The position numbers and the translations under genes are program-made. A stretch of 64,000 bases of DNA from Denitrovibrio acetiphilus DSM 12809 (GTDB lineage: Bacteria; Chrysiogenota; Deferribacteres; Deferribacterales; Geovibrionaceae), in assembly GCF_000025725.1 (NCBI RefSeq), contig NC_013943.1:744001-808000 (forward strand). Reading direction: 5' to 3'. Under the pieces are notes generated by a model. The model worked only from the letters and a program-made list of their open reading frames with translations, did not search any database and was not told where the DNA came from. Each line of letters starts with the position of its first letter. The first letter of the stretch is position 1. This document shows, one piece after another, positions 3,623-41,735 of this stretch.

Positions 3623-4690
3623 ATGTTTCGTAAGATATTGATAATTATTTCAATTGCTATTTTTATCACAGCTTGTGGGGATGACGAGGCAGCCGGCTTT
3701 GATCCGGCAAAGCATGTTCGACCGATAAAGACATATAAGGTTACATCAGTGAAAAGAATGGACGTCCGTACATACCCCGGTAAGATCAGGGCGGGAAAAA
3801 AAGTCGACACATCTTTCATTCTGTCCGGTTCTCTTGTGGTTCTGAATGTTAAAGAAGGGGATTATGTTGAGAAAGGGAGCCTCATAGCAAAGCTTGATGA
3901 TGCCTCTTATAAGCATAACCTTAACACGATAAAGGCTCAGGTTGAGGAAGCCACGCTTGCTTTCCAGCGGGCAAAAAAACTTTGGATTTCCAATGCTATA
4001 TCAAAAGCGGACTACGACAAAGCAAAGTCTGCTTATGATGTTTTACAGTCTCAGAAAGAGCTTGCTGAAAAGAGTTTGCGTGATACGTCGCTTTATGCAC
4101 CGTTCTCGGGGTATATAGCGAAGAGATACGTAGATAATTTTCAGACAGTGTCGGCTGGGGCTCCCATTGCCAGTGTTCAGAACATCAAAGAAATTGAGGT
4201 TGTTGTTAATATACCCGAAAGCCTGATTATGAACTCAAGTCAGAATCTTGATTATAAGGCATATGCGGTGTTTGAAGTACCTTTTAATAAGCAATATGAG
4301 ATGGAGCTTAAGGAAGTTGGTACTGAAGCTGACCCCGTTACGCAGACATATCCTGTTAAGTTTATAATGCCGTCTCCTGATGAAATTACTGTTTTACCAG
4401 GTATGACTGTAGCGGCAAAAATAGTTGTAAGCGAAAGTTATGATGAAGGTGAATTCGAAATACCCGAGAGTGCGGTATTCAGTGACTCCAGCGGAAAGAT
4501 TTTTGTTTGGGTGCTGGATGAGAATATGACTGTACACAAAAGAGAAGTCAAAACAGATGGACTCAAAAACAACAGCGTGCTTGTGCTTGGTGGACTGAAA
4601 GAAGGTGAGGAGATCGCTTCAGCAGGCATTCAGCATCTTGTAGAAGGACTCGAAGTTAAACGTTTTGAGAAACCGGAGAATCTTAAATGA
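3623..4690 (+). CDS. RND efflux membrane fusion protein (HlyD/AcrA family), lipoprotein
   Basis: 355 residues. The signal peptide ends in the lipobox ITAC with Cys18, so the mature protein is anchored to a membrane by lipid. The lipoyl/barrel-sandwich halves surround a short alpha-hairpin (residues 90-145) and are followed by a beta-barrel and a membrane-proximal domain; the LYAPFSGYIAKR segment is typical of the family. A good Shine-Dalgarno sequence (AAGGAG) precedes the ATG. It links the inner-membrane RND pump encoded next to the TolC-like protein before it. Its stop overlaps the pump gene start by 4 bp (ATGA). Confidence 0.9.
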   Translation: MFRKILIIISIAIFITACGDDEAAGFDPAKHVRPIKTYKVTSVKRMDVRTYPGKIRAGKKVDTSFILSGSLVVLNVKEGDYVEKGSLIAKLDDASYKHNLNTIKAQVEEATLAFQRAKKLWISNAISKADYDKAKSAYDVLQSQKELAEKSLRDTSLYAPFSGYIAKRYVDNFQTVSAGAPIASVQNIKEIEVVVNIPESLIMNSSQNLDYKAYAVFEVPFNKQYEMELKEVGTEADPVTQTYPVKFIMPSPDEITVLPGMTVAAKIVVSESYDEGEFEIPESAVFSDSSGKIFVWVLDENMTVHKREVKTDGLKNNSVLVLGGLKEGEEIASAGIQHLVEGLEVKRFEKPENLK

Positions 4691-22323: not shown

Positions 22324-22352
22324 TTGATGTTTAGAACATGAATAGCTATAAT
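22324..22352 (+). promoter_or_regulatory. Promoter of the split tRNA-Leu gene
   Basis: TTGATG (22324-22329) and TATAAT (22347-22352) with a 17-bp spacer. The start would be near 22359, 24 bp before the tRNA. It now drives the broken 5' half and, by read-through, the intact tRNA-Leu at 22463. Confidence 0.7.
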
Positions 22353-22382
22353 CTGCCGAATATCAAGTATATAAACCTTTTT

Positions 22383-22424
22383 GCCCGGGTGGCGGAATTG
22401 GTAGACGCAAGGGACTTAAAATCC
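22383..22424 (+). pseudogene. 5' half of a disrupted tRNA-Leu(UAA)
   Basis: Acceptor 5' strand GCCCGGG, D-arm with AATTGGTAGACGCAA, then GGGACTTAAAATCC, i.e. anticodon stem and loop with anticodon UAA. After 22424 the match to a tRNA ends. The missing 3' half, with the complementary CCCGGGC, is at 41665-41717. Confidence 0.9.
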
Positions 22425-22462
22425 TTGTAAATGTTTGAAAATTGAATAAGAATTAACACCAT

Positions 22463-22548
22463 GCCCGAGTGGTGGAATTGGTAGACACAAGAGACTTAAA
22501 ATCTCTCGAAACGCTTGTTTCGTACCGGTTCGATTCCGGTCTCGGGCA
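22463..22548 (+). tRNA. tRNA-Leu (UAA), carried by the island
   Basis: Complete 86-nt tRNA: acceptor GCCCGAG / CTCGGGC, anticodon stem AGAGA / TCTCT around CTTAAAA (anticodon UAA), a variable arm CGAAACGCTTGTTTCG, T-arm GGTTCGATTCC and discriminator A. It lies 38 bp inside the left junction, so it came with the island and can replace the host gene that the insertion destroyed. No separate promoter is evident between the junction and this gene. Confidence 0.95.
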
Positions 22549-22569
22549 TTTTTAATGCCGATAAAATAG

Positions 22570-22606
22570 GAAGCCTCAGCATTCGCTGAGGCTTTTCTAT
22601 TTTTTA
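22570..22606 (+). terminator. Terminator after tRNA-Leu
   Basis: Perfect stem AAGCCTCAGC / GCTGAGGCTT with ATTC loop, followed by TTCTATTTTTT. Confidence 0.9.
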
Positions 22607-22782: not shown

Positions 22783-24147
22783 ATGATTATTAGACCGAGA
22801 TTAAATGATTTTCATAATTTAACATTCACTCAAACAGATGTAGACTTTGCTATACCATTTCTAGACGAAGATATACCTTTATATCTAGACCCTTTTTTGT
22901 TGTGGAAAAGTCCATCTCAGCAAGATAATTCATTACACACAACTATTACCAATTCATTTAACCAGCTTGGGAATATGTTTTTGAAAGATGAAAATCAAGC
23001 TGTGTCAATTTTAAAAGAGATTTCAGAATGCGATGCGGTAGGTTTGGGTAACTCCAAGAGTAAGCAAGGAAAAAAGATTGGTGATAAAATGGCTTACTCT
23101 GTATTGTCTACATTTAGAGATATTCCGCAAATTAATAAACAGGGATATACTCATTTTGAAGAGCTACAATTATTGGTTGATAGCTTTTCTAAAGATAGGG
23201 TTAGTGATATAGCGTGTAATTTACTTGAATCTTTTCTCATTGATTATACTATCCAGCAATGCGAGAAACACAATGTCCCTATGGAAATTGTAAATATTGA
23301 TTTTTTTGATTTAAAGAAAATGGCATTTGTGTCTGAAAAAGTCCAACTACCTACGAATCCAATTTCTAAAGACCAGATATTATTTGTTCCAAAAAGATGG
23401 CTTCGTTTTGTACCTTGGATCAACTATGAGGACTTCTATAAAGATTATGTTTCTATGTCTGACAAGCTAGATGCAGGTACAACAATACCAAGGGTACAAC
23501 TTCTTGACTATAATAGGCAAAACTACGATCAAGTTCAGGAATTTATCAAAAGAAAGCAACTATCTCAAAAAGATTGCCAAAATGATCCATTGTTTTCTCA
23601 AATACCAATTCTCTCATCAAAAAGGAAACTCGGCAATATTCTTAAATTACCTACTGGTAAAACGGATAACGCAGATCAACAATATGAGAAAGATCTATGC
23701 CCTCTACTTGCATCCATGCTGTTTCCTGAGTTAGATTTTGCAAAACCCCAAGCGAGAACAGCCGATGGTGTTTTGATAAGAGATCTTATATTTTATAACA
23801 ATACATCCCATGATTTTCTAAAAGAGATTTACGATAAGTACAACAGTAGGCAAATTGTATTTGAATTAAAAAATGTCAAAGAAGTTACGACGACTCATGT
23901 AAATCAGCTAAATCGCTATCTTAACAATGAGTTTGGAAGTTTTGGAGTTATTTTCACTAGGAATGAACCTCCCAAAAGTGTGTACAAAAACACAATAGAC
24001 CTTTGGTCTGGTCAGAGGAAATGTATACTCATTATGACAGATAACGATTTAGAGTTAATGTCTCAGGTGTATGAAAATAAACAAAGACTACCTATAGATG
24101 TGCTAAAGAAGAAATACGTAGAGTTCACAAGACAGTGCCCATCTTAG
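22783..24147 (+). CDS. Uncharacterised protein with C-terminal PD-(D/E)XK nuclease-like domain
   Basis: 454 residues, no signal peptide or membrane helix. The C-terminal third has a restriction-endonuclease-like pattern: a helix with YEKDLCPLLASML (about 303-315), GVLIRDLIFYN supplying an Asp (about 335), IVFELKNV supplying the E-x-K pair (about 364-371), then a helix HVNQLNRYL and the FGVIFTRN strand. The N-terminal 290 residues are unassigned and start with RPRLNDFHNLTFTQTDVDFAIPFLDED. It is the first gene of an operon with two small paralogous proteins. A defence role (nucleic-acid cleavage) is inference from the fold and island location; no known defence family was recognised. Confidence 0.6.
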   Translation: MIIRPRLNDFHNLTFTQTDVDFAIPFLDEDIPLYLDPFLLWKSPSQQDNSLHTTITNSFNQLGNMFLKDENQAVSILKEISECDAVGLGNSKSKQGKKIGDKMAYSVLSTFRDIPQINKQGYTHFEELQLLVDSFSKDRVSDIACNLLESFLIDYTIQQCEKHNVPMEIVNIDFFDLKKMAFVSEKVQLPTNPISKDQILFVPKRWLRFVPWINYEDFYKDYVSMSDKLDAGTTIPRVQLLDYNRQNYDQVQEFIKRKQLSQKDCQNDPLFSQIPILSSKRKLGNILKLPTGKTDNADQQYEKDLCPLLASMLFPELDFAKPQARTADGVLIRDLIFYNNTSHDFLKEIYDKYNSRQIVFELKNVKEVTTTHVNQLNRYLNNEFGSFGVIFTRNEPPKSVYKNTIDLWSGQRKCILIMTDNDLELMSQVYENKQRLPIDVLKKKYVEFTRQCPS

Positions 24148-24162
24148 TATAAGGAGAAATGT

Positions 24163-24537
24163 ATGACAGAAGAACAGGTAGAAATATTTCTTAAACTTCA
24201 GCCTCAAATTAAGAGTGCTTATGACGAAATAACACTTTTATCTAAAAAGAAACCAACAGAACCCCTTAATAAATTTAAATTAAAATTTATTAATAGCATG
24301 CTTAATCAAGCAAATCATATCTTGCAAAATGACTATATCCCTTTTCCTGATGAGTTTGAACAGTTTGATGTAGACGATATGCCAAATAATGGAGATGTGG
24401 TATTTATTCTGTCTCACTATTTAACATCTCTAGAAAAGTTGAGATGCGATAATATTAAATATCAAAAGCACTACTATTACTGGGTGATAGATGGTGAAGT
24501 CTCTACTTTAAAGACTTCTCCACCTTGTATAAAATAA
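24163..24537 (+). CDS. Small uncharacterised protein, partner of the 22783 nuclease-like gene
   Basis: 124 residues, mostly helical, acidic in the middle. The segment LLSKKKPTEPLNKFKLKFINSMLNQ and the later DDMPNNGDVVFILSHYLTSLEK recur in the next gene, so the two are paralogues. A GGAGAA Shine-Dalgarno sequence precedes the ATG, 15 bp after the nuclease-like gene. No family is recognised. The operon position suggests a regulator, immunity factor or complex subunit; none of these is shown by the sequence. Confidence 0.65.
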   Translation: MTEEQVEIFLKLQPQIKSAYDEITLLSKKKPTEPLNKFKLKFINSMLNQANHILQNDYIPFPDEFEQFDVDDMPNNGDVVFILSHYLTSLEKLRCDNIKYQKHYYYWVIDGEVSTLKTSPPCIK

Positions 24538-24754
24538 TTTGTTTGGAGTTAATAATGAAAAAACAAAGCATGTGGCTACCTAGTAATAACGATATAGCAA
24601 GCTATAAACTGCTTAGTGAGATGCTTAAATCTTTAAAAAATGAATTTGATCTTTTGTCTAAAAAGAAATCAGACGAGCAGCTTAATAAGATGAAAATTAA
24701 AATGGTTAATAAAGTGCTTGGACAATTGAAAGAACTATTCCAGAATGAAGATTC

Positions 24755-26041
24755 GAGCCTGTCATATTAACTGTGTAAAGTCGTAATTCTGTCTTCATAG
24801 TTGATATATAGCTGTGAGTATATTACACCCCAATCCCTGATTGGCATAGTCCATTTCTTTTCGATACCTAAAATAGCTAAATATAAGAGCTTTACAAGGG
24901 AGTCTTCCGTCGGGAAGGCTCCCTTTCCTTTAGTCGATTTCCTGATGGCAGAATGGAAGCTCTCAACCGGATTCGTGGTATAAATCAGTTTCCTGAGCTC
25001 CTTGGAATATTTGAAATACGTAGAAAGCTCAGTCCAGTTGTTCCGCCATGATTTCGAGATGTTAGGATATTTGCTGTCCCACTTCTCAGCAAAGGCATCC
25101 AGCTCAGCTCTGGCTTGTTCCTCGGTCGCTGCGGCATAGATTTTCTTGAGGTCAGCAGCCACAGTCTTACGCTCCTTCCAGGGCACAAAGCGGAGAGAGT
25201 TGCGTATCTGATGGACTACGCATTTCTGAATCTCAGACTGTGGAAAAGCGGCTGTTATAGCTTCTGAGATGCCCTTGAGGTTGTCTACGGCAAAGATAAG
25301 AATATCCTGTACTCCACGGTTCTTTAGCTCGTTCATAACTGTCAGCCAGTATTTAGCGGATTCTGTCTCGGCAAGATATAGCCCCAGACAGGATTTATGA
25401 CCTTCCATGCTGATGCCGATCACAAAGTAGATAGTGACGTTGCGAACAGCTCCGTCCACACGCATCTTTAAAACCATGCCGTCCATAAAGACGATGGCGT
25501 ATATCTCTTCCAAGGCTCTGTTCTGCCATTCTTTAGCCTGTGGGAGAATCTTGTCTGTAATAACGCTGACTGTCTCCGGCGATAGCTCATGACCGTAGAT
25601 ATCAAAGATGTGCTCTTTGATGTCACGGTTACTCATACCCTTGGCATACATGGAAATTACTTTAGCTTCAATGCCTGATATATCTGTCTGGCGTTTCTTG
25701 ACTATTTCAGGCGAAAAGGTTGATAGGCGATCACGGGGTACTTCGAGTTCCATTTCGCCCATTTGTGATTGTACTTTCTTGGAAGAACGACCGTTACGGC
25801 TGTTGCCGTCACTTACGTTCGGTTCATGTTTCTTATAGCCTAAATGGGCTTCAAGCTCACCTTCGTAGAGCGTTTCTATGACTTCTTTCATCATGTCACG
25901 CATAAACACCTGAAGGTCTTCTGTGGTTTTTACATCGCTTTCAGCAAGCAGTTCTTTCAGTTTGTCCTTGTCTAATTTCATCATAAACCTCGCATGTTAG
26001 TTTAACACATACGACGTTTACACACTTTTATTTACACGCTC
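24755..26041 (-). mobile_element. IS256-family insertion sequence, copy 1
   Basis: 1287 bp, bounded by the 8-bp target duplication GAAGATTC (24747-24754 and 26042-26049). Ends begin GAGCCTGTCATATTAACTG on the left and, on the other strand at the right, GAGCGTGTAAATAAAAGTG. It holds one transposase gene. A second copy of the same length is at 36052. Confidence 0.95.
24767..25984 (-). CDS. IS256-family (Mutator-type) transposase
   Basis: 405 residues, intact. Catalytic residues of the DDE set are visible in VFMDGMVLKM, FAVDNLKGISEA and YTTNPVESFHSAIRK, and CVVHQIRNSLRFV is the conserved C-x(2)-H helix of the family. The translated product is the same as that of the copy at 36064. It fills almost the whole IS. 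Confidence 0.95.
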   Translation of the reverse strand: MMKLDKDKLKELLAESDVKTTEDLQVFMRDMMKEVIETLYEGELEAHLGYKKHEPNVSDGNSRNGRSSKKVQSQMGEMELEVPRDRLSTFSPEIVKKRQTDISGIEAKVISMYAKGMSNRDIKEHIFDIYGHELSPETVSVITDKILPQAKEWQNRALEEIYAIVFMDGMVLKMRVDGAVRNVTIYFVIGISMEGHKSCLGLYLAETESAKYWLTVMNELKNRGVQDILIFAVDNLKGISEAITAAFPQSEIQKCVVHQIRNSLRFVPWKERKTVAADLKKIYAAATEEQARAELDAFAEKWDSKYPNISKSWRNNWTELSTYFKYSKELRKLIYTTNPVESFHSAIRKSTKGKGAFPTEDSLVKLLYLAILGIEKKWTMPIRDWGVIYSQLYINYEDRITTLHS

Positions 26042-26255
26042 GAAGATTCGCTCCAATTTCTAGAAATCCTTGAGGAAGATGATATACCTTCTAATAGCGA
26101 TGTTGTTGTCATCTTAAGTCAATATGAAACAGCGATAACTCTCTTTAAGAGACATTATTTTAAGGACTATAAATGGATAACTTCAGATTAATGTTATGTA
26201 GTTTATAATTAATATAGTTTATGTTATCTGAGATTCAATTATAATATTTAATCTA

Positions 26256-27082
26256 GGGGCTGTTCACATTTATTTTAACCATATGATTACAGCCACCAAT
26301 GTTACCATTGCCTCATAGTTTCTTGCAAGTTTTTCATATCTTGTGGCAATTCGCCGGAATTCTTTCATTCGCTGAAAGAGCCTTTCAACCAGATTGCGCT
26401 CTTTATACAAATGCTTGTCATATTTCCGTTGTTCTAATCTATTACATTTAGGCGGGATAACTGCAACAGCACCAGCCTGTATTATTGAAGACACAAAAGC
26501 ATTGGAATCGTACCCTCTGTCAGCAATCACATAAGCAGGTGAAAATCCTGCGATGAGATTATCTGCCTGAGCGTATTCCGACTCCTGTCCTCCCGTAAGG
26601 ATAAACCTTACAGGGTTGCCATGTGAATCCACAGATGCATGAATCTTAGTACTCAGACCGCCTCTGGAACGCCCTTGGCATTCTTGGTTTTGGCAGTTTT
26701 TTTTGATGCACCATGTTGATGAACCCTTACAATACTGCCGTCTACCATAAGGTACTCAAGGTCTGCATCTCCAGACAGCTCTGCAAATACTTTCTGCCAA
26801 ACATCCTTTTTAGCCCATCTGTCATAACGTACGTATACACTATGCCATTTGCCAAAGCAGGGGTGCATGTCACGCCAAGGACTACCTGTTCTGGCTATCC
26901 ATAAGACTGCTTCTACAAAAAGACGGTTATCTTTAGCTGTTACTCCGCTGTCGCTCTTTTTTCCGGGGAGCATATCTTTGATGCGTTCCCATTGTTCATC
27001 TGATAATTGAGCTCTATACATAAAATACTCCAATTATTTCATTGGAATATATATCGGCATTAATTTAAATGTGAACAGCCCC
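26256..27082 (-). mobile_element. IS5-family (IS427-like) insertion sequence, copy 1
   Basis: 827 bp with ends GGGGCTGTTCACATTT and AAATGTGAACAGCCCC, inserted at CTAG with TA duplicated on each side. An identical-length copy in opposite orientation is at 40103. Confidence 0.92.
26270..27021 (-). CDS. IS5-family transposase made by -1 frameshift from two frames
   Basis: Frame A (ATG at 27021, GGAG upstream) encodes about 122 residues including LSDEQWERIKDMLPGK and ARTGSPWRDMHP. A run of eight A near 26697-26704 is a likely -1 slippery site; the second frame continues with GRSRGGLSTKIHAS and then SHGNPVRFILTGGQ, VIADRGYDSNAF and RNLVERLFQRMKEFRRIATRYEK, which hold the remaining DDE residues. 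This two-frame layout is usual in the IS427 group. The gene appears intact in this form. Confidence 0.88.
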
Positions 27083-27097
27083 TAGTTAAATGGCTTT

Positions 27098-28477: not shown

Positions 28478-30294
<1,817 letters not shown>

Positions 30295-32516: not shown

Positions 32517-32786
32517 ACACGCAGTATTTCAGCCGTGTTACTGAACGATATTTCTGTTGCTCTTAATGTGTCAATTTCAGAGCTAATACAACACGACCAC
32601 AAATATAACAGCGAACTTTTAAAAAAGAGGTCACAAAATACATCAACAGTGCCAGTTCAGAAACCATCCAGAAGATTTATTTCTTTATTAAAAATATTTT
32701 ATAGTAACGATACATACTTGTCTGGTCTTTCCTGTTTTGTTAATATAGCATGCCACATGTTAAAGAGGCGTACTAATAATGTCTAA
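32517..32786 (+). pseudogene. C-terminal remnant of a second XRE regulator
   Basis: The frame opens inside sequence equivalent to the middle of an XRE domain: SISAVLLNDISVALNVSISELIQ corresponds to NVSAALLNDIASALNIPIAEL in the 42504 protein. The N-terminal half of the HTH is missing, and only GTG 32535 could start it. It is probably a remnant joined by recombination. Confidence 0.6.
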
Positions 32787-33879
32787 GCAAGTGTTTACTA
32801 GCTTCGAAAGAGAAGCGATTTGGACTGCATATAATCGAAAATGTGCTTATACTGGTAGACAGTTAGAAATTGATAATTTTCACATAGAGCACATAATCCC
32901 TGAATCAATAGCCCAAAACAAAAATGAATTAGATAAGATTATCAGAAATTTTGGTTTACCAAATGATTTTGATATTTTCGGTTATGAGAACCTATTGCCC
33001 TCCCATCCTAGCGCAAATCTAACAAAAGGTAATAAGACGTTAATATCGACACCTTTCTTTATTAATCTCGCAATTGAGAAAAAACCAATCATTGAAAATA
33101 ATATTAAAAAACTACAGGAAATGGCATCGAGAAGTAAATTTATCATGTCTATTAAACAAGCATTTGAAAGGGACATAATTACCGAACAAAAAATGAACGA
33201 ACTAATAACTTTATTTGACAGCAAACCAAATGATGCTTTTAACATATTAGTGGAATTGGAATTCAAGAACAAAGTAGTTTTTAATAAAGTTAGTAAAAAT
33301 GAAATAAATGAGTTGTTAAATATGCCTCTTGATACAATTGATAAATTATTCCGAACTAAAGATGGAAAAAAAGAGGAATATGTAATTCAAACATGCAATG
33401 ACTATTTTAAAGCATTAGAGAATGGATTCTATCCGTTTACTACTTATGATATGGCACGCACCACTCACCTAGAACAAAAATGTGGACTATTAAAAGCTAT
33501 ACAAGATGCAAGATTACCACTCACTTCTTATATCTCTGAACCCAAAAAAAGTATTCTTGATACCAATTTGCTATCATTTAACTTTTTCCCTTGGATTGCA
33601 GAAAATTCTTCAAGACCAATATATCGTGAAACCTATAGTGACATGATAAAGAGGGGTGAGGCAAAAGTGATATCCACAACATCGCATAGCATTACAATTG
33701 AACATGCTGGGCTCAGACAATCACTGACGGAAGTCATGCGAGCTGATTTTGATAACGATGGAATAGAAGACATTCTACTATTTGAATCATATCATGTAAC
33801 ACAAGGAACTTTTGGATACGGTGAAATCAGGATTATCTCAATAAAAGAAAAAGATGGAAACTTTGTTATTGTCAAATAG
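32779..33879 (+). CDS. HNH endonuclease-like protein with C-terminal VCBS-like loop
   Basis: 366 residues. N-terminal HNH site: KCAYTGRQL, DNFHIEHIIPES, then NLLPSHPSANLTKGN (the second H/N element), residues about 12-90. A long helical middle follows. The last 70 residues contain ADFDNDGIEDILLF, a DxDxDGxxD calcium-type loop, then a beta-rich end. No zinc CxxC pairs are present. It may cut DNA in defence against phages; a toxin or other effector role is also possible. AGAGG lies upstream of the ATG. Confidence 0.7.
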   Translation: MSKQVFTSFEREAIWTAYNRKCAYTGRQLEIDNFHIEHIIPESIAQNKNELDKIIRNFGLPNDFDIFGYENLLPSHPSANLTKGNKTLISTPFFINLAIEKKPIIENNIKKLQEMASRSKFIMSIKQAFERDIITEQKMNELITLFDSKPNDAFNILVELEFKNKVVFNKVSKNEINELLNMPLDTIDKLFRTKDGKKEEYVIQTCNDYFKALENGFYPFTTYDMARTTHLEQKCGLLKAIQDARLPLTSYISEPKKSILDTNLLSFNFFPWIAENSSRPIYRETYSDMIKRGEAKVISTTSHSITIEHAGLRQSLTEVMRADFDNDGIEDILLFESYHVTQGTFGYGEIRIISIKEKDGNFVIVK

Positions 33880-33916: not shown

Positions 33917-33945
33917 CAATTCAGAACGATTTTTGTTCTAAATTG
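33917..33945 (+). repeat. 29-bp dyad site, copy c
   Basis: Arm CAATTCAGAAC, spacer GATTTTT, arm GTTCTAAATTG; arms match at 10 of 11 positions. It is just before the 33958 gene. Spacer identical to copy e. Confidence 0.75.
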
Positions 33946-33957
33946 ATAGGTGAATAT

Positions 33958-35520
33958 ATGCGGACTGAGGAACAGATAATAGCCGAATTAAAGGAACTAT
34001 GTGTTCAAGATGGTTATCTAAATGCTGTTGCACACTTTTGTTTAATGACCGGATACATTTTTTATTCAGAAGAAATTGGCTCCAATGAGGTATCTGACCG
34101 TTATTCACGTAAAAATCTAATTGATACAGAAATTAAGACTATCTTGGGATTTGCGATAAAAAACGGAATTAATACTCAAGAAGTAAAACCTGTAACAGTA
34201 CAATCATACATCGATCAAACAGAAGAGCTTTTAAAAGAATTACACGATTCAATGGGACTGACTATTCGTGATGAGTTATTTAGTAACTCTCAAAGTGAAG
34301 CGATTCCTGTAAGAACACCAGATGAGTTTCCTAACAGTTTCTTCCGTGAAGTCATCTTTTACTGTGGCATGTCAGCACACAATTTTCAGTTTCATGAGTT
34401 TGCTATTGAGAAATACAAGAATGATAATGATTGGCTTCAGAAAACTTATGGGGTATCTATTCAAGATTGTGTGACAATTTGTAAAGCAATTTCTGATAGA
34501 GTTTTAGAAAACATTAATTCCACTCGCTCAGATAAAACTAAATCATCAAAAGTTTTAACTGATGGAAATTTTCTAATAAATCTTTTTAAGTTCAACCTTT
34601 CTGAAATTGCTAAGCAATCTGAGTTAGACAAAAATATCGTTCAAAGTTTTATGAAGTTATTTTCTGTAGATGATACAGAAAGGAATAATTTGTTTAGTGA
34701 GTTAAACGATTATAACGTTATTCAAGCAAAGCCTATAATACAAATTAGTTCTCATGAGTATCTCAGCTTGGATAGCACATCACTTTATCAGGCTATTTAT
34801 GAATCGCCTTTTTACTGGATGATGCGAGACACGGGTTACACAAATATTGCTGTCGAAAATAGAGGTCGTTTTGCCGAAGAATTTGTGTTTAATAAGCTAT
34901 CTGAAATATTTGGGATTAATAATGTTTATAAAAATATCGATATATATTCCTCCCCAAGTAATAGGCTAGGTGAAATAGACATATTAGTTCAATATTCTGA
35001 CAGAATATTTATTGTGCAGACGAAATCAAAGGGCTTAACTTTAGCGGCTCAGAAATGCAATGATAATACTTTAAGAGGGGATTTTAAAAAAGCTGTTCAG
35101 GATGCTTACGATCAAGGTCTGATTTGTGCTAAAGCGTTGCTTGAGAATAAGAACTACCTGCTAGACTCTGAAAAAAATAGAGTCGAAATAAAGCACAAGA
35201 TTAATGATATTTTCATTATTTGCTCAACTTCTTCTCACTACCCAGCCATTAGTGTTCAGTCAGCACATTTTCTAAAGTATGAAACGAGCAACATTATACA
35301 TCCTCCCTATGTTTTGGATATCTTCTTTTTTGATATACTGTGTGAGTTTTTAAATGACCCTTTGTACTTCATGGATTTTCTTAAAAAACGCTTACGATAC
35401 ATAAAATCTTTAAGAGCAACCCATGAACATACTATCCTAAGTTACCATCTACAACATAATCTGTATTTTTCAGAAAAATATGATTGTATGTCCTTGGATG
35501 ACGACATTGCACAGGATTAG
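33958..35520 (+). CDS. Uncharacterised protein with C-terminal PD-(D/E)XK nuclease-like domain
   Basis: About 520 residues from ATG 33958, with AGGTGA upstream. The N-terminal 290 residues are helical and unassigned. From about 300: RGRFAEEFVFNKLSEIFG (helix with Glu), then RLGEIDILVQYSDRIFIVQTKSKGL, giving the D-x(n)-Q-x-K signature of restriction-like and NERD-like nucleases. Cytoplasmic, no membrane helix. The next gene, 8 bp on, encodes a SEC-C protein, and both stand inside a module bounded by 29-bp sites. A defence function is likely but inferred. Confidence 0.65.
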   Translation: MRTEEQIIAELKELCVQDGYLNAVAHFCLMTGYIFYSEEIGSNEVSDRYSRKNLIDTEIKTILGFAIKNGINTQEVKPVTVQSYIDQTEELLKELHDSMGLTIRDELFSNSQSEAIPVRTPDEFPNSFFREVIFYCGMSAHNFQFHEFAIEKYKNDNDWLQKTYGVSIQDCVTICKAISDRVLENINSTRSDKTKSSKVLTDGNFLINLFKFNLSEIAKQSELDKNIVQSFMKLFSVDDTERNNLFSELNDYNVIQAKPIIQISSHEYLSLDSTSLYQAIYESPFYWMMRDTGYTNIAVENRGRFAEEFVFNKLSEIFGINNVYKNIDIYSSPSNRLGEIDILVQYSDRIFIVQTKSKGLTLAAQKCNDNTLRGDFKKAVQDAYDQGLICAKALLENKNYLLDSEKNRVEIKHKINDIFIICSTSSHYPAISVQSAHFLKYETSNIIHPPYVLDIFFFDILCEFLNDPLYFMDFLKKRLRYIKSLRATHEHTILSYHLQHNLYFSEKYDCMSLDDDIAQD

Positions 35521-36051
35521 ATATTGCAATGCTAGTGAGGCGTACAGGTGCGCCTGCAAAAGAGACTCCAGAAGGCATCTTGACAAGGTTAAAAGACACG
35601 CCTTTTAGTAAACTGATTTCCCAGATTAAGTATAATGATGATCCTGCCATTATTAAGTTCGGCGAAACGCTTCTCGGTTTAAGTGAAGACTCTGTTTTAG
35701 AATTAAGTGGCTATATTGAAAATATGGCTAAAGACACAAAGAAAACAGGTCAGCAGCATGATTTTACAATAGCGAATGATTTATTTGGCTTAACAATTCA
35801 CTGTAATAATGGAAGCGATAAAGAAGCTCTAAAACTCTTGAAAAACCATTGTGAAAAAAGAAAGTACAAACAAAAATTGCATGATTATTATGGAGCATGT
35901 ATTGATGAAAATTTGAATATCAGATTTTGTATTACTTTAGAGTATCCATATGTTTATGCGTATTCCGGTGTAATTGGACACTGAATCCGGAAATGACTGG
36001 ACAGTGATTCCGGTTTTGATTGGTCAGTTTGAATTCAGTTAATCTTCCTAC

Positions 36052-37338
36052 GAGCCTGTCATATTAACTGTGTAAAGTCGTAATTCTGTCTTCATAGTTG
36101 ATATATAGCTGTGAGTATATTACACCCCAATCCCTGATTGGCATAGTCCATTTCTTTTCGATACCTAAAATAGCTAAATATAAGAGCTTTACAAGGGAGT
36201 CTTCCGTCGGGAAGGCTCCCTTTCCTTTAGTCGATTTCCTGATGGCAGAATGGAAGCTCTCAACCGGATTCGTGGTATAAATCAGTTTCCTGAGCTCCTT
36301 GGAATATTTGAAATACGTAGAAAGCTCAGTCCAGTTGTTCCGCCATGATTTCGAGATGTTAGGATATTTGCTGTCCCACTTCTCAGCAAAGGCATCCAGC
36401 TCAGCTCTGGCTTGTTCCTCGGTCGCTGCGGCATAGATTTTCTTGAGGTCAGCAGCCACAGTCTTACGCTCCTTCCAGGGCACAAAGCGGAGAGAGTTGC
36501 GTATCTGATGGACTACGCATTTCTGAATCTCAGACTGTGGAAAAGCGGCTGTTATAGCTTCTGAGATGCCCTTGAGGTTGTCTACGGCAAAGATAAGAAT
36601 ATCCTGTACTCCACGGTTCTTTAGCTCGTTCATAACTGTCAGCCAGTATTTAGCGGATTCTGTCTCGGCAAGATATAGCCCCAGACAGGATTTATGACCT
36701 TCCATGCTGATGCCGATCACAAAGTAGATAGTGACGTTGCGAACAGCTCCGTCCACACGCATCTTTAAAACCATGCCGTCCATAAAGACGATGGCGTATA
36801 TCTCTTCCAAGGCTCTGTTCTGCCATTCTTTAGCCTGTGGGAGAATCTTGTCTGTAATAACGCTGACTGTCTCCGGCGATAGCTCATGACCGTAGATATC
36901 AAAGATGTGCTCTTTGATGTCACGGTTACTCATACCCTTGGCATACATGGAAATTACTTTAGCTTCAATGCCTGATATATCTGTCTGGCGTTTCTTGACT
37001 ATTTCAGGCGAAAAGGTTGATAGGCGATCACGGGGTACTTCGAGTTCCATTTCGCCCATTTGTGATTGTACTTTCTTGGAAGAACGACCGTTACGGCTGT
37101 TGCCGTCACTTACGTTCGGTTCATGTTTCTTATAGCCTAAATGGGCTTCAAGCTCACCTTCGTAGAGCGTTTCTATGACTTCTTTCATCATGTCACGCAT
37201 AAACACCTGAAGGTCTTCTGTGGTTTTTACATCGCTTTCAGCAAGCAGTTCTTTCAGTTTGTCCTTGTCTAATTTCATCATAAACCTCGCATGTTAGTTT
37301 AACACATACGACGTTTACACACTTTTATTTACACGCTC
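36052..37338 (-). mobile_element. IS256-family insertion sequence, copy 2 (nested)
   Basis: 1287 bp, flanked by CTTCCTAC (36044-36051 and 37339-37346), inserted in the left end region of IS21 copy 2, downstream of istB. Sequence appears the same as copy 1 at 24755. Confidence 0.95.
36064..37281 (-). CDS. IS256-family transposase, copy 2
   Basis: 405 residues, same translation as the 24767 gene, with the same DDE residues. Intact. Two identical copies 11 kb apart show recent movement. Confidence 0.95.
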   Translation of the reverse strand: MMKLDKDKLKELLAESDVKTTEDLQVFMRDMMKEVIETLYEGELEAHLGYKKHEPNVSDGNSRNGRSSKKVQSQMGEMELEVPRDRLSTFSPEIVKKRQTDISGIEAKVISMYAKGMSNRDIKEHIFDIYGHELSPETVSVITDKILPQAKEWQNRALEEIYAIVFMDGMVLKMRVDGAVRNVTIYFVIGISMEGHKSCLGLYLAETESAKYWLTVMNELKNRGVQDILIFAVDNLKGISEAITAAFPQSEIQKCVVHQIRNSLRFVPWKERKTVAADLKKIYAAATEEQARAELDAFAEKWDSKYPNISKSWRNNWTELSTYFKYSKELRKLIYTTNPVESFHSAIRKSTKGKGAFPTEDSLVKLLYLAILGIEKKWTMPIRDWGVIYSQLYINYEDRITTLHS

Positions 37339-37397: not shown

Positions 37398-38153
37398 CTA
37401 TTCATTTTTCATGTTAACAGAGCTCTGCTCTTTCTCTTTCCTGAGCGACTCGCCAGTAAGCTGTAAGTGTTCGGCGTTATGCACAAGCCTGTCACATATG
37501 GCGTCAGCGATAGTGTGATCACCTATGATGTCATGCCATTTATCAACAGGTATCTGAGTAGCGATAATAGTGGACCTAGCGGAGTAGCGGTCTTCCATGA
37601 CCTCAAGGAAGTCCTTCCTCTCATGGTCGTTGAGAGTATCAAGCCCCCAGTCGTCAACTATCAGTACGTTTACCTTGGACAGCTGAGTAAGCACCTTTAC
37701 GTAAGAACCATCTGTTCTTGCCACCTTAAGCTCCTGAAGGAGCCTCGGAAGTCTGACATAGAGGGACTTTATTCCGTTTCGGCATGCGCTGTTGCCGAGA
37801 GCGCAGGCGATATAAGTCTTCCCAACTCCAGAGGCTCCGGTGATTATGATATTCCTGTGTTTGCGAACCCAATCATTCTTGCCAAGCTCCAGCATCATCT
37901 GCTTTGTAATGTTCCTGCCGTTCCTGTACCGAATGTCCTCTATGCAAGCACCAGTATACCTGAGTTTAGCTTTCTTTAGAAGCAGGCTGAGCTGTCTGTC
38001 TTCCCTGTACAGAGACTCATGTTCCAGAAGGATTCTCAGCCTCTCATCGAAACTGAGCTCATCCACCTCCAGCATCTTGCGCTGTAGCTCATACGCCTGA
38101 ATGAATCCTTTAAGTCTGAGCTGTGTCATCATTTCCGTTAGTTCCATATTCAA
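37398..38153 (-). CDS. istB: IS21 helper ATPase IstB (copy 2)
   Basis: 251 residues. Walker A GASGVGKTYIACAL (about 105-118), Walker B VLIVDDWGLD, and IIATQIPVDKWHDIIGD after it. AAA+ partner of the IstA encoded upstream; its start overlaps the istA stop by 4 bp. Different subgroup from the IstB at 28478. Confidence 0.95.
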   Translation of the reverse strand: MNMELTEMMTQLRLKGFIQAYELQRKMLEVDELSFDERLRILLEHESLYREDRQLSLLLKKAKLRYTGACIEDIRYRNGRNITKQMMLELGKNDWVRKHRNIIITGASGVGKTYIACALGNSACRNGIKSLYVRLPRLLQELKVARTDGSYVKVLTQLSKVNVLIVDDWGLDTLNDHERKDFLEVMEDRYSARSTIIATQIPVDKWHDIIGDHTIADAICDRLVHNAEHLQLTGESLRKEKEQSSVNMKNE

Positions 38154-39688
38154 TCATCTCCTTTTATACGGTAGTACTCATTGCCCCTGATATTCTCATG
38201 GACAAGATTCTTTCTTGGTTCTCCTTCAAGGTAGTGTATTTTATCCAGACCTTTTTCAAGGATAGACTTAATGCTGTTATATCTGACAGTGCCGCTCTCC
38301 AGAACCATACGGCATGCCTTCTCAAGTCTTTCCGGCGGGTAATACTTCGAAAGCTTAATAACACCCATACAGCTCTTGTAAGCCTGTTCCGGAAACTGCC
38401 TGCTGTCTATAATGGCATCTATTGCTTTGGCGGTGTACACTCCGGCTGTCTTTGACGCCCATTTGTTCATTCTCTCTGGTGTCCAGCCTGAGGCGACGAA
38501 CTGATGATTGGGCGGCATGTGGGCGGCAGAGGTAGCATAGTATCCACGCTTAAAAGACCGAGGGTGTGATGCTATACATTTATTCTTATGCAGTATCTGA
38601 ACTATCCTGCTGTTGTATTTGATATCTACAGTTTCGCCCATAAGTCGCCATGGGACACTGTAGTGAGCATCTCCAATCTGCACATGATAGTTGAAATTCA
38701 CCTTGGCTTTTTTCCAGCTGTACTGTTCGAATCTTTCAAATGGGAGAGGTTTCAGTGCAGGCTGGTCTAATTCTTTGAACAGCTGTCTGCGGGATGACTT
38801 CATGTGCTGCATGGGTCTGTCGTTAAGATTTACAAGCTCTTCCGCCACTGCGCTGTTGAGTTCCTGTATGCTGTTGAATGTGCGGTTACGGAGTACAGCA
38901 AGGATACGGCGCTGAACGTTAAGTACGCCGTTCTCTACTTTACCCTTATCCTTTGGTTTACCTGGTCTTGCGGGGACAACTGCGATGCCGTAATGCGCCG
39001 CCATGTCTGCGTAACCGGGATTTATATCAGGATCGTAAAAGCATGGGGACGTTACTCCAGACTTAAGATTATCCGGCACTATGCATTCAGGAACGCCGCC
39101 GAAGAAATCGAACATCTTTACATGGGCTTCTATCCAGAACTCTTTCGTCTGGTCAGGAACACATACCGCATAGGTGTATGAACTTGCTCCTAAGGTCGCT
39201 ACAAAGAGATCTACTGATGTCACCTCGCCTGTTATTGGATTTACGATCTCAGGCTTGTAACCGGAGAAGTCTACAAATACCTTCTCGCCTGCTTTATGAT
39301 TAAACCGCATCGTCGGATTAATCTTTTTACTCCACTGCTGATAGTGGTAAGAGAACTGGGAACGGCTGTAGCCTCCGGGATTCTCACGAATATACTCTTC
39401 CCAGAGAAGCTGAAGAGTCACCCCTTTGCGCTTAAGCTCTTTGCAAAGGTACTCCATATCCGGCATTGGGCGGGAGTATACTGGCTGATCTGGTTCTTTG
39501 GGGTAAAAGATTGACTCAAGCTTCTCGTCCGGAAGCTCGGCAAATGTTTCATAAGGTATGCCTGAATCTATGTACTTGTTGATGCATCCGCCTGCTGTCG
39601 TTGGTGATACATTGCAGGCTTTGGCTATCTGACGGTTGCTGAGACCGCCCAGATTGTAAAGGCGGATTACTTCACGAAGATATTTCAT
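38150..39688 (-). CDS. istA: IS21 transposase IstA (copy 2)
   Basis: About 512 residues from the ATG at 39688, which has AAGGAAGG upstream; an ATG at 39718 is also in frame. Helix-turn-helix GGLSNRQIAKACNVSPTTAGG, then VFVDFSGYKPEI, CIVPDNLKSGV and KGKVENGVLNV with the D, D and E residues, and a Mu-type C-terminal domain. The gene is intact. Confidence 0.93.
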   Translation of the reverse strand: MKYLREVIRLYNLGGLSNRQIAKACNVSPTTAGGCINKYIDSGIPYETFAELPDEKLESIFYPKEPDQPVYSRPMPDMEYLCKELKRKGVTLQLLWEEYIRENPGGYSRSQFSYHYQQWSKKINPTMRFNHKAGEKVFVDFSGYKPEIVNPITGEVTSVDLFVATLGASSYTYAVCVPDQTKEFWIEAHVKMFDFFGGVPECIVPDNLKSGVTSPCFYDPDINPGYADMAAHYGIAVVPARPGKPKDKGKVENGVLNVQRRILAVLRNRTFNSIQELNSAVAEELVNLNDRPMQHMKSSRRQLFKELDQPALKPLPFERFEQYSWKKAKVNFNYHVQIGDAHYSVPWRLMGETVDIKYNSRIVQILHKNKCIASHPRSFKRGYYATSAAHMPPNHQFVASGWTPERMNKWASKTAGVYTAKAIDAIIDSRQFPEQAYKSCMGVIKLSKYYPPERLEKACRMVLESGTVRYNSIKSILEKGLDKIHYLEGEPRKNLVHENIRGNEYYRIKGDD

Positions 39689-40102
39689 TGTTAACCTTCC
39701 TTTCTTGCGTCGTCGCATCTGTCTCTCCTGTTTTTGAGACAGATTCTATAGGCTCGGAAGATTAACGTAAAATTCAATTCAAATGATAAAACAGGACACA
39801 AATACAAATCCGGCTGTTGCACTTAAGTGTCCAGTCATTTCCGGATTCACTGTCCAGTTAATTACGGATTGAGTGTCCAATCAATTCCGGAAATGGTGTC
39901 CAATTAAAACCGGATTGACTGTCCAATCAACTCCGGATTTCGCATGTTTATTCAGATTCCATGAATTTTAGATCAATGTCTTTATCGAACTTAAATTTAA
40001 TAAATTGAGACAAGCATAATACTAAAGAAAAACAAAAGACTGGTAGGAATGAACCATGCCCTTGTGGTAGCGGTAAAAAATATAAAAAATGTTGTTTATC
40101 TA

Positions 40103-40929
40103 GGGGCTGTTCACATTTAAATTAATGCCGATATATATTCCAATGAAATAATTGGAGTATTTTATGTATAGAGCTCAATTATCAGATGAACAATGGGAAC
40201 GCATCAAAGATATGCTCCCCGGAAAAAAGAGCGACAGCGGAGTAACAGCTAAAGATAACCGTCTTTTTGTAGAAGCAGTCTTATGGATAGCCAGAACAGG
40301 TAGTCCTTGGCGTGACATGCACCCCTGCTTTGGCAAATGGCATAGTGTATACGTACGTTATGACAGATGGGCTAAAAAGGATGTTTGGCAGAAAGTATTT
40401 GCAGAGCTGTCTGGAGATGCAGACCTTGAGTACCTTATGGTAGACGGCAGTATTGTAAGGGTTCATCAACATGGTGCATCAAAAAAAACTGCCAAAACCA
40501 AGAATGCCAAGGGCGTTCCAGAGGCGGTCTGAGTACTAAGATTCATGCATCTGTGGATTCACATGGCAACCCTGTAAGGTTTATCCTTACGGGAGGACAG
40601 GAGTCGGAATACGCTCAGGCAGATAATCTCATCGCAGGATTTTCACCTGCTTATGTGATTGCTGACAGAGGGTACGATTCCAATGCTTTTGTGTCTTCAA
40701 TAATACAGGCTGGTGCTGTTGCAGTTATCCCGCCTAAATGTAATAGATTAGAACAACGGAAATATGACAAGCATTTGTATAAAGAGCGCAATCTGGTTGA
40801 AAGGCTCTTTCAGCGAATGAAAGAATTCCGGCGAATTGCCACAAGATATGAAAAACTTGCAAGAAACTATGAGGCAATGGTAACATTGGTGGCTGTAATC
40901 ATATGGTTAAAATAAATGTGAACAGCCCC
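40103..40929 (+). mobile_element. IS5-family (IS427-like) insertion sequence, copy 2
   Basis: 827 bp, same ends as copy 1 (GGGGCTGTTCAC / GTGAACAGCCCC), at CTAG inside the last codons of the SEC-C frame. Opposite orientation to copy 1, so recombination between them could invert the 13 kb in between. Confidence 0.92.
40164..40915 (+). CDS. IS5-family transposase made by -1 frameshift, copy 2
   Basis: Same two-frame product as copy 1: frame A from ATG 40164 to its stop near 40532, a run of eight A near 40482-40489 for slippage, then frame B through VIADRGYDSNAF and RNLVERLFQRMKEFRRIATRYEK to 40915. The translations agree with those of copy 1. Confidence 0.88.
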
Positions 40930-40962
40930 TAGATGAACTTCGAATTAATGTTTGAGTTAAAG

Positions 40963-41499: not shown

Positions 41500-41664
41500 A
41501 AATACTCCTCATAAACACAATAATCCAACGTGGTACAAAAAGTCAAATTCTACAGGTGTAACTTATTTATATTGTTAGATAAATCTTAGAAAACAGGATT
41601 TGGTACATTCTTGAGTTTTAGCTAATTATCAATCCTATTAATAATTTAGAATACACACATTTAC

Positions 41665-41717
41665 CTTAAAATCCCTCGAGATATAATCTTGTACGGGTTC
41701 GATTCCCGTCCCGGGCA
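41665..41717 (+). pseudogene. 3' half of the disrupted tRNA-Leu(UAA)
   Basis: From the shared core CTTAAAATCC onward: 3' anticodon stem TCCC, variable arm GAGATATAATCTTG, T-arm ACGGGTTCGATTCCCGT, acceptor CCCGGGC and discriminator A. The acceptor pairs with GCCCGGG at 22383. Confidence 0.92.
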
Positions 41718-41735
41718 TTTCATATACTAATAACG

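Follow-up and report, generated by a model that had tools for sequence, protein, structure and literature searches.

How does a bacterium live with an element that cuts a tRNA gene in two and does not repair it? An island in Denitrovibrio acetiphilus DSM 12809 raises this question: it lies inside a tRNA-Leu(UAA) gene and carries an intact tRNA-Leu(UAA) gene of its own (Table 1). The stretch of DNA analyzed here, hereafter the window, is 64,000 nucleotides long. A preliminary description had proposed that the element breaks the host tRNA, leaves its 3′ end unrestored, and supplies a complete, different tRNA with the same anticodon. Our analysis supports this proposal: the island swaps in a new tRNA for the one it destroys, instead of restoring the 3′ end.

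The split host tRNA-Leu(UAA) gene

The host gene is cut at the anticodon loop, and its two parts are separated by 19,250 bp (19.25 kb). When rejoined, they give a canonical tRNA-Leu(UAA) in which all stems are paired in the predicted fold. The same 10-bp core is found at both junctions, and its first seven bases, CTTAAAA, are the 7-nt anticodon loop. An attP rebuilt from the two island ends (...acatttacCTTAAAATCCttgtaaatg...) has inverted arms, CATTTAC...GTAAATG, flanking this core. Because these arms are not tRNA sequence, the host tRNA is not restored: the 42-nt 5′ stub left at attL runs on into non-tRNA sequence, the 3′ half lies 19 kb off, and restoration by an attP fragment was found at neither junction of the window island. 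With only 10 bp in common between attP and attB, integration would split the tRNA irreparably.

Members of the family have a single tRNA-Leu(UAA) gene each, and the rejoined host tRNA is 88–91% identical to it over the full length (e.g., in G002, G009, and G003). In the genus-mate G002 (91% identity), this gene lies below the same synthetase gene as in D. acetiphilus. The relatives do not share the sequence on the right of the island, so the empty site is backed on the left side only.

Table 1. Features of the island and its junctions in the window (positions are those of the window)
Feature	Position	Strand	Remarks
Host tRNA-Leu(UAA) promoter	22324-22352	+	TTGATG-17-TATAAT; now upstream of broken tRNA
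Host tRNA-Leu(UAA), 5′ part	22383-22424	+	GCCCGGG...GGGACTTAAAATCC; cut at anticodon loop
attL, left core copy	22415-22424	+	10 bp, CTTAAAATCC
Spacer, attL core to delivered tRNA	22425-22462	+	38 bp; contains left attP arm GTAAATG and AT-rich leader TTGAATAA
Delivered intact tRNA-Leu(UAA)	22463-22548	+	Sole one in genome; ARAGORN, Rfam
Intrinsic terminator of delivered tRNA	22569-22596	+	
Candidate defence gene PDC-M36A	22783-24147	+	454 aa; E=2e-224
Candidate defence gene PDC-M36B	24163-24537	+	124 aa; E=3e-46
IS256-type (Transposase_mut) transposase	24767-25984	-	24754-25053 identical to 36051-36350 at second copy
IS4/5-type insertion sequence	26248-27090	-	Inverted copy 40095-40937, 100% identical
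IS21-type transposase pair (IstA/IstB)	28478-30294	-	
HNH nuclease-like protein	32779-33879	+	366 aa
NERD / DUF4143-like protein	33943-35520	+	525 aa
Second IS21-type transposase pair	37398-39718	-	
attR	41658-41674	+	Right attP arm CATTTAC and right core copy CTTAAAATCC (41665-41674)
Host tRNA-Leu(UAA), 3′ part	41665-41718	+	CTTAAAATCCCTCGAG...CCCGGGCA

The delivered tRNA-Leu(UAA) gene

An intact tRNA-Leu(UAA) gene followed by a terminator was found 38 bp inside the left junction, as first described. It scores 58.8 bits in Rfam (cut-off, 29), has the same orientation as the host tRNA, and retains an anticodon loop CTTAAAA of its own; over the common 5′ part, the two are 82% identical, that is, different in sequence. 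The layout of a half followed by an intact gene is not a product of chance, with zero matches expected in shuffled sequences.

A second tRNA-Leu(UAA) elsewhere in the genome would have made the delivered copy dispensable. This possibility fails on the gene count. The D. acetiphilus genome (3.22 Mb) gives 42 tRNA-model matches, in which the Leu genes besides UAA are UAG, CAG, AAG, and CAA, and a pattern count of Leu(UAA) 5′ parts returned the stub and the delivered gene and no more. The delivered copy is the only intact one, and UUA is in use, accounting for 65 of the 879 Leu codons in the window genes. A tandem pair in island-free relatives, which would have pointed away from replacement, was not seen; each has one gene. 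Since the delivered gene is the sole one in the genome and the relatives have a single tRNA and no tandem pair, the island replaces the tRNA rather than restoring it.

Transcription of the delivered tRNA

The host promoter is intact, on the same strand as the delivered tRNA and 110 bp upstream of it. With 10/12 matches, it is the best site in the region (score 12.9, p = 0.013 versus shuffles). Between the two tRNAs, the best site is TTGTAA-17-AAGAAT in the spacer, with a score of 8.1 (p = 0.21, or p = 0.13 for the spacer alone), and scoring against shuffles revealed no significant promoter in 22392–22461. These values bear out the earlier impression of a good −35/−10 pair before the broken tRNA and none evident that belongs to the delivered one. 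Native tRNA-Leu(UAA) promoters of relatives are good in five of the eight tested, with scores of 11.5–12.2 (G003, G004, G006, G009, and G011). Given this geometry and the lack of a significant internal site in the window, it is plausible that the orphaned host promoter drives the delivered tRNA.

The same swap could also have involved a delivered tRNA with its own promoter, its nearness to the host promoter being accidental. The weak spacer site would then serve as promoter; at some loci of the scan described later, the best site is one inside the spacer (a strong one at L138), and the actinophage Fionnbharth supplies its tRNA with a strong promoter (PMC10865867). A simple promoter scan over all loci did not separate host from internal sites. 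We nevertheless consider an own promoter unlikely, as the internal site in the window does not rise above shuffles and an intact host promoter stands upstream on the same strand. In addition, near placement is seen in several phyla with 41–43 nt preferred, though in a scan that allowed only about 18–48 nt.

Overall, the best explanation, which we consider probable, is that the tRNA-Leu(UAA) was split on entry and replaced by the delivered copy, into which the host promoter would read through. A tyrosine integrase would have recombined the element into the 7-bp loop CTTAAAA of the only tRNA-Leu(UAA) gene that the host had. What would let it survive in its host is the complete tRNA-Leu(UAA) close inside attL, in the same orientation and with its own terminator. 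Transcription from the orphaned promoter would most likely continue past the 42-nt stub and through the delivered tRNA, and RNase P and 3′ processing would then release the latter. The split, the short core, the cognate delivered tRNA, and its uniqueness are direct observations, as is the layout elsewhere, with both halves seen twice, the window included. In the equilibrium fold predicted for the precursor, the acceptor strand of the stub pairs with the 3′ strand of the delivered tRNA. Such pairing could hinder maturation, and the order of folding and processing may matter.

The element had also been thought hard to lose or to delete at this end, which is too strong. Deleting only the end with the delivered tRNA would presumably kill the cell, but if the island were excised precisely, the host tRNA would be whole again. 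Neither an integrase nor a recognizable remnant of one was found in the window island, and this absence would by itself make the island immobile; we infer that the island once had an integrase, since lost.

Classical islands at the same gene

In three relatives (G005, G006, and G011), classical islands occupy the same tRNA gene, with a full tRNA followed by a 3′ fragment 4–16 kb on. The tRNA-Leu(UAA) gene is therefore a hotspot in the family, and the solution found in the window island differs from that of these relatives. In G002 (L099, about 3858–3930) and G001 (L097:12590–12626), a degenerate tRNA-Leu(UAA) 5′ half lies ~130 bp before the intact gene; a common two-hairpin sequence, ACTTACTCGCTTGCGAGTGGCGAACTTGTTCGTC, follows these halves, and the upstream or promoter region is duplicated.

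A composite or nested origin, in which an older, classical 3′-restoring element brought the intact tRNA and the first copy was truncated later, could draw on this hotspot and on the many insertion sequences in the island. It is nonetheless very unlikely: a classical insertion gives a full tRNA plus a 3′ fragment, whereas here an intact gene stands behind a 5′ stub, and the dyad attP arms at the two ends fit a single insertion.

Recurrence of the layout across bacteria

In 84,980 species genomes, we looked for the 5′ half of a tRNA-Leu(UAA) with another tRNA-Leu start behind it, too near for an ordinary tandem. The pattern admitted spacers of about 18–48 nt only and is thus biased to close placement. 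The same tRNA type, which the preliminary description had proposed to look for in related islands, recurs in this layout at 32 loci, mostly genuine: by eye, most consist of a stub cut at the anticodon and then a tRNA-Leu(UAA) of different sequence. The loci come from Clostridia, Lentisphaeria, Bacteroidota, Desulfovibrionaceae, Rhodospirillales, Neomarinimicrobiota, Acidobacteria, and alphaproteobacteria, and in nearly all genomes checked, the pattern found no other Leu(UAA) genes. Two loci, L121 and L143, proved to be ordinary tandems of tRNA genes, and a third, L135, is doubtful as a swap locus.

Both ends were seen in two loci only, the window and L149, and an integrase beside the delivered tRNA in three genomes. 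In L149, from a clostridial MAG, the host halves are 11.9 kb apart and give a canonical tRNA when rejoined. The insert holds the intact tRNA and, convergent with it, the gene for a 404-aa tyrosine integrase; it also encodes a Mob_Pre relaxase, a YhcG nuclease, and restriction proteins, namely an N6/N4 methylase and an accompanying ResIII helicase. Related integrases (33–49% identity) adjoin the delivered tRNA in G074 and G082. Viral contigs gave no match to a single integrase sequence and only two distant, uninformative loci with an alignment, and a plasmid collection gave distant integrases only. A related integrase (about 35% identity) occurs in the inovirus PQ006185, in which no tRNA gene accompanies it. 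The tRNA-Leu(UAA) phages EBPR podovirus 3, MT121960, MT839839, MT837313, and AbIPP1 show no clear swap next to attP.

Many other loci show the left-end footprint alone, on MAG contigs with no integrase nearby, and some of these may be duplications. For the window, too, one might suppose a decayed partial duplication of the tRNA gene without any integration, in line with the many database loci that lack an integrase or a 3′ half, the repeats at L127, and the degenerate 5′ copies with duplicated promoter regions in G001 and G002. However, stub and intact acceptor stems usually differ at several positions across the loci, the cuts fall at the anticodon core, and in the window and L149 a matching 3′ half lies at the far end of the insert. 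A duplication is highly improbable as an account of the left-end footprint and is refuted for the window by the rejoining of the two parts. Three loci do resemble decayed duplications: L128, L136, and L127 (Mongoliibacter), where the repeats look duplicated.

The least probable account is that the island struck the first of two tRNA-Leu(UAA) genes standing in tandem in the host: tRNA tandems are common and the two 5′ parts in the window are 82% identical, but the relatives carry a single Leu(UAA) gene, a full first gene would not fit into the distance, and the far 3′ half contradicts it. The intact gene is placed between the two halves of the broken gene and hence came in with the insertion.

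Some genomes show more than one stub. G074 has two stubs (acceptor stems GCTTCCG and GCTGGTG) ahead of an intact tRNA whose stem is GCTTGTA, and G062 has two stubs and one intact tRNA gene. The simplest reading of these ladders is successive insertions, each cutting the tRNA brought by the previous one; the delivered tRNA would therefore itself be a target.

In 12 of 18 sequences, 41–43 nt separate the loop from the delivered tRNA, within the roughly 18–48 nt allowed by the scan, and spacers of this length occur in Deferribacterota, Clostridia, Desulfovibrionaceae, and Neomarinimicrobiota (four phyla). The motif GAATAW is present in 11 of the 18 delivered-tRNA leaders (0.7 in shuffles), as compared with 3 of 17 stub leaders and 1 of 27 native leaders of the order. 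At the sequence level, these features suggest a conserved att–leader–tRNA cassette, in which the motif might serve in processing or in binding of the integrase.

Variants of the layout were also observed. In four Lentisphaeria genomes (L120, L133, L137, and L140), the stub runs directly into its own acceptor 3′ strand, ACTTAAAATCCGGGCA, and this mini-tRNA with an internal deletion has been kept in all four. At L126:3142–3349 (−), the stub is followed by a tRNA-Leu(UAA) with a group I intron after the anticodon, which was confirmed with Rfam for this locus only; the second tRNA-Leu(UAA) of L111, L114, L115, L118, L129, and L139 probably has a group I intron too. The att core of the new gene would be interrupted by such an intron, which might prevent renewed targeting.

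Comparison with known systems

tRNA-dependent lysogeny has been shown experimentally for the actinophages Fionnbharth, cluster L, and Gaia, with cores of 8–17 bp and tRNA-Lys(UUU) and tRNA-Leu(CAA) as targets, and its spread beyond actinophages was left open (Guerrero-Bustamante & Hatfull 2024, PMC10865867). As in these phages, the core in the window is short (10 bp), the split host tRNA is not rebuilt, and the element has a tRNA of the same isotype that would complement the sole host gene. The actinophages have a tyrosine integrase, whereas the window island does not; L149, G074, and G082 have one beside the delivered tRNA. Furthermore, the carriers described here are non-phage islands with defence and mobilization genes, and their target is tRNA-Leu(UAA). 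The Fionnbharth tRNA is on the opposite strand and overlaps gene 37 (PMC10865867), whereas the tRNA in the window lies 38 bp inside attL, in line with the host promoter.

In the Rhizobium Paadamvirus vTRX32-1 / RHEph01, a 12-bp core lies in a tRNA-Leu, the host gene is interrupted, and a phage tRNA-Leu is the presumed replacement (PMC8631192). The anticodon there is UAG, and in RHEph01 the integrase lies between attP and the tRNA, which is on the other strand at a distance of about 1.1 kb. This tRNA lacks the core, whereas the delivered tRNA in the window retains the CTTAAAA loop and the ladders show re-targeting. In the Lactobacillus johnsonii prophage Lj965, known to us by citation (in PMC10865867), the tRNA is likewise not rebuilt at the junction and the prophage bears a cognate. 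Classical Islander-type islands (PMC4383910) share the integrase crossover at the tRNA anticodon loop but restore the tRNA from an attP fragment, leaving a full gene and a fragment, as in the three relatives described above.

The principle is thus already published. What is added here are non-phage islands as carriers, tRNA-Leu(UAA) as the target, an apparent spread over several phyla, and the ladders, as well as the placement of the delivered tRNA in line behind the orphaned promoter, whose use as the driver we infer. These data place the strategy in non-phage islands and suggest it, at one preferred gene, in several further phyla. They also outline a simple way for a foreign copy to displace an essential tRNA gene, with a geometry in which the orphaned promoter of the host would drive the replacement. 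Footprints of a stub plus an intact tRNA can be missed or misread by tRNA annotation pipelines and by island finders that look for one full gene plus one fragment.

We are evenly divided on a broader proposal, namely that promoter capture is the means by which a widespread class of non-phage islands, mobilizable and defence islands, replaces tRNA-Leu(UAA). Such islands would deliver a complete tRNA, always equally far behind the stub, and regenerate a fresh target, leaving ladders of dead 5′ halves; the host gene would be steadily swapped for a foreign one, and the swap would be fixed after the island decays.

Other content of the island and the genome

No virion genes were found among the island proteins scanned, which instead include insertion sequences (two IS256-type, two IS4/5-type, and two IS21-type) and candidate defence genes. 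The identical copies of the IS256-type and IS4/5-type elements, the latter pair inverted, point to recent bursts, which could have removed the integrase or could invert the middle of the island. The PDC-M36A/B pair (22783–24537) lies directly behind the delivered tRNA, and no other M36A copies were found in viral contigs or in 51 genomes of the phylum.

Elsewhere in the genome, outside the window, a weak partial tRNA match (C1:2705793–2705849) adjoins a tyrosine integrase domain (2706607–2707086), and the two probably belong to another tRNA-targeted island. Also outside the window, a tRNA-Leu with the anticodon AAG is encoded at C1:1970467–1970552 (L035), and no Leu(GAG) gene was found in the D. 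acetiphilus genome. CUU is the most frequent Leu codon in the window genes (321 of 879). An AAG tRNA-Leu without a Leu(GAG) gene, together with frequent CUU, suggests inosine decoding of Leu, which is unusual in bacteria.
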